From positions 230,843-294,842 of the forward strand of contig NW_006767434.1 of NCBI RefSeq assembly GCF_000264995.1: a stretch of DNA of 64,000 bases, given 5' to 3'. Positions within the stretch are counted from its first letter, which is position 1. Each line of letters starts with the position of its first letter. This document shows positions 56,246 through 59,903 of this stretch, one piece after another. Both the position numbers and the translations under genes were made by a program. Source of the DNA: Punctularia strigosozonata HHB-11173 SS5. Its lineage: Eukaryota; Basidiomycota; Agaricomycetes; Corticiales; Punctulariaceae. The notes beneath the pieces were generated by a model. It made no database searches, had not been told where the DNA came from, and saw only the letters and a list, made by a program, of their open reading frames with translations.

Positions 56246-57098
56246 ATGGACGCACGGCTTAGGAGAGTCAACAAGGAGATTGCAGGTCAGTTAATTTCTC
56301 TAGGACGTCAGTGCTCATTCGAATGAACACCTGCAGCGTAGACTGCAAAAATGACAAGACATCCAACATTCGGATCGAGTTGATCGACGACTCGCCGTAC
56401 CACCTCAAGGGATCCTTCAACGGGCCCGAAGGCACGCCATATGAAGGCGGCCACTTCGAAGTCGTAGGTGTCACCCACGCCCTCCGCCCTGCCCGAGCGA
56501 GTGCGTCTCACCTAGCGCCCGCGTGCGTGCCGTCTCTCAGGACATCGTGATCCCGGAGAGCTATCCGTTCCAGCCCGTGAAGATGAAGTTCATCACGAAG
56601 GTGTACCACCCGAACGTCTCGTCCGCATCGGGCGCGATCTGCCTCGATATCCTCAAGGACGCGTGGTCGCCCGTGCTGACGCTCAAGTCGACGCTCATCT
56701 CGCTGCAGTCGCTCCTGTGCTCGCCCGAGCCGAACGATCCGCAGGACGCGGAGGTCGCGAAGCATTACTCGACCAGCAGGAGCAGCTTTGACGATACGGC
56801 GCGGTACTGGACGCACATATACGCCGGCGGGCCAGATCCGAAGACGCGCGGCCAGCCGGGAGGAGGGCAGGCGGCGGGGAGGGACGAGATCGCGATAGCG
56901 GGCCTCGAGCGGGCGCATGTCGAGCAGTTCGAGGCGCTCGGGTTCGAGCGGAGTAAAGTCGTACGTCTGTGATCCTACCGCGTTCTCTTTCATCTAACGT
57001 AAAGTCCGTAGATTGACGTGCTTCGTCGATTGAACTACCGCGGGGCGAACGTCGCCAAGATCAACGACGATAGGGTGGTCGAGGAGTTGCTGAAGTGA
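56246..57098 (+). CDS. UBC1: Ubiquitin-conjugating enzyme E2 with C-terminal UBA domain (Ubc1/UBE2K)
   Basis: Transfers ubiquitin from E1 to substrates with E3 ligases; Ubc1-type E2s build K48-linked chains. Exons 56246-56285, 56342-56463, 56541-56960, 57012-57098; 222 aa. UBC fold: MDARLRRVNKEIADCKNDKT, LIDDSPYHLKGSFNGPEGTP, IPESYPFQPVKMKFITKVYH, then HPNVSSASGAICLDILKDAW with the catalytic Cys at residue 88 (the same number as in yeast Ubc1), and LISLQSLLCSPEPNDPQDAE. The C-terminal UBA domain spans the last intron: HVEQFEALGFERSKVIDVLR then RLNYRGANVAKINDDRVVEE. The 3' part of this gene (from 56836) is repeated after the N gap at 57985; that second copy is not a separate gene. Confidence 0.96.
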
Positions 57099-57669
57099 TT
57101 CCCCGCTCTCATCGTCGAACCCCTGCCCCTTGCATGAGCTGTATTTTTCAGCTTCCCCACCACTGTTGTATTCCTGCTAGTCCATTTTCACGACTGTAAG
57201 ATGGGTTGTTGTACGACAATCGACGATCAATGCATCCGATAGATATCGGTCGACCTTGGCTCTGACTTTGAGGCTTGAACCAGACACAGGTAGGGTACTC
57301 TATAAGTGTTGAATCACTCCTTGATGCACTACATATAGTACGTCAACTCGCTGGAGAGGAGGCGAGCGTATACCTCCGCTGTGTCACATGCCTGTCACTT
57401 GCTATCTAACCATATACTACTCATCACCCTTGTGCCTGATGGCCGCGTCTCATACACGCCTAGGTTGTCCTCAGCCTCTCCCGACGCCTCCGTCCGTCGA
57501 GCTTGTCGCAGTTTCATCGGGCTGAACAAGGCCGAACGGGACTTCCAGGATGCAGTACGGGGGCGGCTCCAGTCAGGGTGGTTATAGGCAGAGGCCTCAA
57601 GGATACGGCGGACCGAGTCAGCAGCCGCAAAGCCCGCATAGTCCACAAGGATACGACAATCCGCCGTAT
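56836..57669 (+). repeat. Left copy of an 834-bp exact duplication flanking the N gap
   Basis: Identical, as far as I can read, to 57985-58818 (offset 1149). It covers the last part of UBC1 exon 3, intron 3, exon 4, the UBC1 downstream region and the first 120 bp of the DUF7514-like coding region. The identity ends exactly at the first N. Confidence 0.95.
57550..57669 (+). other. Duplicated 5' fragment of the DUF7514-like gene (assembly copy)
   Basis: The first 40 codons of the gene at 58699, ending at the gap. Treated as an assembly duplicate and not a second gene. Confidence 0.9.
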
Positions 57670-57984
57670 NNNNNNNNNNNNNNNNNNNNNNNNNNNNNNN
57701 NNNNNNNNNNNNNNNNNNNNNNNNNNNNNNNNNNNNNNNNNNNNNNNNNNNNNNNNNNNNNNNNNNNNNNNNNNNNNNNNNNNNNNNNNNNNNNNNNNNN
57801 NNNNNNNNNNNNNNNNNNNNNNNNNNNNNNNNNNNNNNNNNNNNNNNNNNNNNNNNNNNNNNNNNNNNNNNNNNNNNNNNNNNNNNNNNNNNNNNNNNNN
57901 NNNNNNNNNNNNNNNNNNNNNNNNNNNNNNNNNNNNNNNNNNNNNNNNNNNNNNNNNNNNNNNNNNNNNNNNNNNNNNNNNNNN
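57670..57984. other. Assembly gap (315 N)
   Basis: Run of N. Since both flanks are the same sequence, the gap size and very probably the gap itself are artefacts of two overlapping contigs being laid end to end. Confidence 0.95.
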
Positions 57985-58818
57985 ATCCGAAGACGCGCGG
58001 CCAGCCGGGAGGAGGGCAGGCGGCGGGGAGGGACGAGATCGCGATAGCGGGCCTCGAGCGGGCGCATGTCGAGCAGTTCGAGGCGCTCGGGTTCGAGCGG
58101 AGTAAAGTCGTACGTCTGTGATCCTACCGCGTTCTCTTTCATCTAACGTAAAGTCCGTAGATTGACGTGCTTCGTCGATTGAACTACCGCGGGGCGAACG
58201 TCGCCAAGATCAACGACGATAGGGTGGTCGAGGAGTTGCTGAAGTGATTCCCCGCTCTCATCGTCGAACCCCTGCCCCTTGCATGAGCTGTATTTTTCAG
58301 CTTCCCCACCACTGTTGTATTCCTGCTAGTCCATTTTCACGACTGTAAGATGGGTTGTTGTACGACAATCGACGATCAATGCATCCGATAGATATCGGTC
58401 GACCTTGGCTCTGACTTTGAGGCTTGAACCAGACACAGGTAGGGTACTCTATAAGTGTTGAATCACTCCTTGATGCACTACATATAGTACGTCAACTCGC
58501 TGGAGAGGAGGCGAGCGTATACCTCCGCTGTGTCACATGCCTGTCACTTGCTATCTAACCATATACTACTCATCACCCTTGTGCCTGATGGCCGCGTCTC
58601 ATACACGCCTAGGTTGTCCTCAGCCTCTCCCGACGCCTCCGTCCGTCGAGCTTGTCGCAGTTTCATCGGGCTGAACAAGGCCGAACGGGACTTCCAGGAT
58701 GCAGTACGGGGGCGGCTCCAGTCAGGGTGGTTATAGGCAGAGGCCTCAAGGATACGGCGGACCGAGTCAGCAGCCGCAAAGCCCGCATAGTCCACAAGGA
58801 TACGACAATCCGCCGTAT
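57985..58818 (+). repeat. Right copy of the 834-bp exact duplication
   Basis: Starts exactly after the last N with the sequence found at 56836 and runs to the point matching the left edge of the gap. Beyond it the DUF7514-like gene continues normally. Confidence 0.95.
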
Positions 58819-59641
58819 CCGAATCAGCAACAGCCTCAGCAAGCGTACAGCACGGGCTACAGGCCGACGTCGTTCGACGATCCGTCTGGGGTCCCTGGAG
58901 GCGAGGCGTACTGGGGCCTGTGAGTCCAATCATCCAATGCGTATACCAAACCAAACCGGTATTGGCGTGGTGAAGGCGGGAACTGATTGCGGCTTGTATG
59001 CGCAGATTGATGGACAACGGGAGGCCGACCGAATTGATGATACGCCTGTGCGACTCGCTGTTCATGTTCATCGACCGAAACTGCTCCCAGGCCGAGCTGC
59101 GGGGGACACAACGCCTCGAGCCCGCGAAGTACATGTGGCTCATGACCGCCCTCGGCGCCCCGCCCGGCACCGTACGCCCCCTCCTCATATCGCTACCTGC
59201 CACTCCCCCCTCTAACGCATCCACTTATTCACATTCCTATAGGCGGAGGCGGTGTGCATCTCCCTCCAGTCCTTCTACGACATGGCCGCCGTCCCGTACC
59301 AGTTCGTGCCCGTGCCCGGGTCGTCCGGCTCCCCGGTGCCCGTGCTCGACGCGCGCGGGTTCCTGCATATGGCCGTCTTCGAGGCGCGCGCGGACCCGGA
59401 CGCGTCCCACCGGCACTTCCAGAAAGCGCTCAACGTGTTCGGCCTCGTCGACCCCGCCACGAACGCGCGGTTCCCCGCGCCGATACCGCGGAGCGCGTTC
59501 CCGTATATGCCCGAGTGGCAGCTGAAGAACGCGTATACGGCGTGGCAGACGCAGGCGATTATCGCGAGCAGTGGGGCGAGGAGCAATGCGATGGTGGCGG
59601 GTATGCTGGGTGGGGGTAGGTTTGGTGGCTTTGGGTCGGGT

Positions 59642-59673
<32 letters not shown>

Positions 59674-59903
59674 AGGTTCGGGCTTTGGGGCGTACGGGGC
59701 GGGTAACAGCCGTGAGTTGCAGCTGTTGTTATACCTTCGGATGACTGACGGATGGGACAGAGGTGATGCAGATGCTGCAGACGCAGCAGGCGGAGGCGAA
59801 GAAGCGCGCGAGCTACGCCAAGCTGGCGAGCGGCGTGGTGAGCCTTTTAGGAGGTGGAGGTGTGGGCGGCTTGGGAGGCGGGTTAGGAGGCTTTGGTAGT
59901 TGA
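58699..59903 (+). CDS. DUF7514-like protein with Gly/Met-rich tail
   Basis: Function unknown. Exons 58699-58919, 59006-59171, 59243-59711, 59761-59903; 332 aa. The N-terminus is Gln/Gly/Pro/Tyr-rich and disordered (SQGGYRQRPQGYGGPSQQPQ). A conserved domain follows, starting EAYWGLLMDNGRPTELMIRL with RLEPAKYMWLMTALGAP, ISLQSFYDMAAVPYQFVPVP, LDARGFLHMAVFEARADPDA, FPAPIPRSAFPYMPEWQL. The YWG..D..G.PT opening is what I associate with DUF7514; that match is from memory. The tail contains GMGMGMGMGMGIGSG, then a helical AEAKKRASYAKLASGVVSLL and a Gly-rich end. The start ATG follows a long leader. Confidence 0.8.
59640..59676 (+). repeat. GGCATG hexanucleotide repeat (Gly-Met repeat)
   Basis: About six units of GGCATG within exon 3 of the DUF7514-like gene, encoding alternating Met and Gly. 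Confidence 0.9.

Follow-up and report, generated by a model that had tools for sequence, protein, structure and literature searches.

Introduction

Duplications that arise during genome assembly have been described under several names. Duplicated overlapping contigs (DOCs) were described as an error class by Kelley and Salzberg in 2010 (PMC2864568): contigs near each other on the same scaffold have overlapping ends that should be merged and that otherwise appear as a recent duplication. That account ascribes DOCs to haplotype divergence and tests them with mate pairs; the four columns of one of its table rows on mis-assembled cases give 5,698, 13,159, 1,094 and 8. An account of false duplications (PMC9516828) names a gap between the copies among their main marks and false gene gains among their results, and defines the homotype kind by read depth and k-mers. 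Finally, the negative gaps of a third study (PMC3158087) are neighbouring contigs that overlap and were left unjoined. For one assembler, this source gives most gap estimates as within 4 bp of the true value and 95% of the negative gaps as closed.

Here, we analyse a duplication of 834 bp that fits the already known class of duplicated overlapping contigs. It lies in a window of 64,000 nt (the whole stretch of DNA analysed, C2:230843-294842 on scaffold C2) of an assembly of 33,569,446 bases in 32 contigs. Like the DOCs, it involves nearby contigs of one scaffold with ends to be merged and looks like a recent duplication; like homotype false duplications, it lacks haplotype differences, has a gap between the copies and would produce false partial gene copies; like negative gaps, it concerns neighbouring contigs that appear truly to overlap and were not joined. 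It differs from the DOCs in that its copies are identical, whereas divergence is the cause given for DOCs, and from both of the first two in that it was recognised in the sequence alone instead of by mate pairs, read depth or k-mers. It differs from the third in that the estimate is negative there, whereas +315 N were written at the gap of the window.

Results

Identical sequences on both sides of the gap

The window has a single run of N, and the features around it are the following.

56836..57669, + strand: left copy, at the end of the left contig; it contains the 3' part of UBC1, the sequence between the two genes and codons 1-40 of the DUF7514 gene
57670..57984, no strand: scaffold gap, a run of 315 N
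57985..58818, + strand: right copy, at the start of the right contig; identical to the left copy

The sequence-only reading had claimed a base-for-base duplication ending exactly at both gap edges, and a position-by-position comparison of the 64,000-nt window confirmed it: the copies are 834 bp each, with 0 mismatches, the last base of the left one adjoins the N run and the first base of the right one directly follows it. The same exact suffix-prefix match of 834 bp was found when we compared 3 kb of flank on each side of the gap, i.e., the ends of two neighbouring contigs of one scaffold align at 100% up to both gap edges. When the 834-bp sequence was searched in the whole assembly, the two matches listed were these two copies (such repeat counts being lower bounds), and we rejected a dispersed multi-copy repeat on this basis. 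Within the window, the pair is the sole direct-repeat family of at least 60 bp reported by a repeat search (seed 20; a reference copy of 300 nt is listed). A megablast search of plasmid records gave no match, which is uninformative for fungal DNA.

If the source was dikaryotic or diploid, its two haplotypes, placed in succession, could leave such a pair (a heterotype false duplication). Many fungi with multi-intron genes are sequenced as dikaryons, and the genes found here have several introns. However, haplotypes that are kept apart by an assembler normally differ, and these copies show 0 differences in 834 bp. We rejected this reading, which we regard as scarcely credible.

The geometry is also that of a real tandem duplication. 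Any suffix-prefix match has an edge-to-edge form, and thus identity up to the gap edges cannot, by itself, separate an artefact from a tandem duplication that the assembler did not resolve. Such a duplication would be very recent, have a period of ~832-1149 bp, span the junction of UBC1 and the DUF7514 gene, and owe its perfect identity to its youth, with the assembly broken at the gap. It would have formed at a 7-bp microhomology: the unit begins with ATCCGAA (56836), and the same motif recurs from 58817, a pairing that could mark the duplication junction. Among 300,000 random breakpoint pairs, ~0.34% have at least seven identical bases in contact with both breakpoints when a shift of at most 3 is allowed (a post hoc count), but 7-bp identities lying up to 20 bp from both breakpoints occur in 5.6% of 20,000 random pairs. 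We consider this microhomology weak evidence of duplication. A junction with a spacer of 0-30 bp had 0 matches in the assembly, a weak argument against tandem duplication because the junction would fall within the N run. Among the 27 direct-repeat pairs of at least 200 bp found in two stretches, each compared with itself, no pair other than the 834-bp one is at 100%, which also argues against it. All in all, we find a real tandem duplication very improbable.

Two genes across the gap

The 834 bp begin within coding exon 3 of UBC1 and end within coding exon 1 of the DUF7514 gene. Each gene is present once in full and once as a fragment cut at the gap.

56246..57098, + strand: complete UBC1-type gene, 222 aa, with UQ_con and UBA_3 (from exons, translation and Pfam)
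57550..57669, + strand: truncated 5' end of the DUF7514 gene, 40 codons in an open frame, cut at the gap (right-copy coordinates -1149)
57985..58247, + strand: truncated second 3' end of UBC1, parts of two exons, 57985-58109 and 58161-58247 (left-copy coordinates +1149)
58699..59903, + strand: complete DUF7514 gene (from exons and Pfam PF24355)

UBC1 lies entirely to the left of the gap, with four exons (56246-56285, 56342-56463, 56541-56960 and 57012-57098). Its product matches UQ_con (1e-43) and UBA_3 (2.3e-19), both above the Pfam cut-offs, and by these predicted domains the gene of the left contig is a UBC1-type ubiquitin-conjugating enzyme. The DUF7514 gene lies entirely to the right of the gap (exons 58699-58919, 59006-59171, 59243-59711 and 59761-59903, the last acceptor being a tentative choice), and its domain is also above the Pfam cut-off (2.5e-21). 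One copy of the 834 bp is thus enough for both genes to be complete. A tandem duplication would likewise give each gene one full copy and one truncated fragment. If the duplication is an artefact, as we favour, the second 3' end of UBC1 and the 5' fragment of the DUF7514 gene are probably both spurious. The sequence-only reading had named the same two genes and the same two extra ends; both fragments are present at the gap, and the domains of the two genes pass the Pfam cut-offs.

Overlapping flanks at other gaps of the scaffold

We examined the window and a further 280 kb of the same scaffold, i.e., 344 kb of the 33.6 Mb, of which 313,245 bases are non-N. This sequence has 10 N runs. The one starting at C2:226580 was excluded because its right flank lies outside the sequence examined, which left nine gaps including that of the window. 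At each gap, the end of the left flank was compared with the start of the right flank, and we required an alignment of at least 50 bp, with at least 90% identity, at most 2 bases away from both edges. Such edge-to-edge overlaps were found at three of the nine gaps, i.e., at two of the eight besides the window gap.

C2:94591-94982: gap of 392 N; flanks overlap over 199 columns, 99.5%
C2:129660-130054: gap of 395 N; flanks overlap over 105 columns, 95.2%
C2:288512 (the window gap): gap of 315 N; flanks overlap over 834 bp, 100%

Two controls in practice exclude a chance origin of edge-to-edge overlaps: there were none among 72 pairings of left flanks with the right flanks of other gaps, and none among 1500 gaps of 300-810 bp simulated in gap-free sequence. 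The three overlap-positive gaps are all among the seven that are shorter than 1 kb.

The differences between the copies at the two other gaps resemble sequencing errors. At C2:94591 there is one T difference in a homopolymer, and at C2:129660 there are five one-base indels: one in a homopolymer of C, one in a homopolymer of A, and three clustered ones of a single C each. Of these six one-base indels, three are changes of homopolymer length, and neither pair of copies has a substitution. At C2:129660 a frame that is open in the left copy is broken in the right one. Differences made of indels only, together with a broken frame, are better explained by a single locus sequenced twice, with errors at a contig end, than by paralogues. 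A transposase-like element surrounds the gap at C2:94591, with Pfam matches that fall short of the cut-offs (HTH_Tnp_Tc3_2, 4e-06; DDE_3, 0.049), and thus a break caused by a repeat is also possible there. On the evidence of the indels and the broken frame, overlapping contigs of this assembly appear to have been left unmerged, with positive gaps of several hundred N written between them, which speaks against a real tandem duplication in the window.

The positive length written at the window gap nevertheless favours such a duplication, because in an artefact the +315 would be wrong by 1149 bp. Given the accuracy described in PMC3158087, an error of this size would be atypical of the assembler of that study, and such errors are thus not the rule everywhere. 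As the two other gaps with overlapping flanks also carry positive lengths (392 and 395 N), the 315 N weigh little in favour of a real spacer, and we set the gap length aside as proof of one. It also counts for a tandem duplication, and against an artefact, that an exact overlap of 834 bp should have been merged more easily than two overlaps containing errors. The lack of an edge-to-edge overlap at six of the nine gaps likewise counts against an artefact.

Sequence at the edges of the gaps

The six gaps without edge-to-edge overlap are of several kinds. Two are N runs of more than 10 kb, where a gap may have been captured or sequence withheld, since withheld stretches also read as N. The gap at C2:325245 lies in a diverged short repeat with ~80-86% similarity near the edges. 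At the gaps C2:77669, 180366 and 299409, an edge carries a poly-C tract, 9 to 31 long.

Overall, poly-C of at least 8 is found within 60 bp of an edge at four of the nine gaps (C2:77669, 129660, 180366 and 299409), as compared with 77 of 20,000 random windows of 120 bp. Poly-C tracts therefore seem to be places where the assembly breaks. The window gap is not among these cases: it has no poly-C or poly-G of at least 8 within 60 bp of its edges, and we discarded a homopolymer as its cause. The gap at C2:299409 splits a chitin synthase gene (Chitin_synth_1, 5.8e-33). Elsewhere on the scaffold, C2:98749-99022 and C2:107428-107699 form a direct repeat (98.9% over ~274 columns) with 8.7 kb between its copies, the second of which adjoins a 10-kb N run. 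A mobile element ending beside a captured gap may account for this repeat.

Discussion

The assembled bases lead us to conclude that the 834-bp duplication is very probably an assembly artefact, in which two overlapping contigs were left unmerged. It is supported by the edge-to-edge identity at 834 of 834 positions, by the complete gene on each side and by the two further edge-to-edge overlaps on the scaffold. The sequence-only reading had proposed the same explanation, and the overlaps at two of the eight other gaps now strengthen it. Two contigs would share 834 bp at their ends, and the scaffolder would have set them side by side without merging them, inserting a spacer of 315 N whose length is wrong and positive. 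The failure would lie at the contig-merging or gap-closing step. Most likely, the 834 bp occur once in the genome, and the DUF7514 gene comes directly after UBC1. The expected excess also holds arithmetically: if the duplication is an artefact, 834 + 315 = 1149 bp are spurious and everything to the right of 57669 is shifted.

The significance of these results is one of quality control only. About 1149 bases at this locus are probably spurious, with a corresponding shift of the coordinates to their right, and each of the two genes, UBC1 and the DUF7514 gene, can appear in annotation with a false partial copy. Since the flanks overlap at three of the nine gaps, the other small gaps need checking before the duplicated or truncated genes adjacent to gaps are counted.
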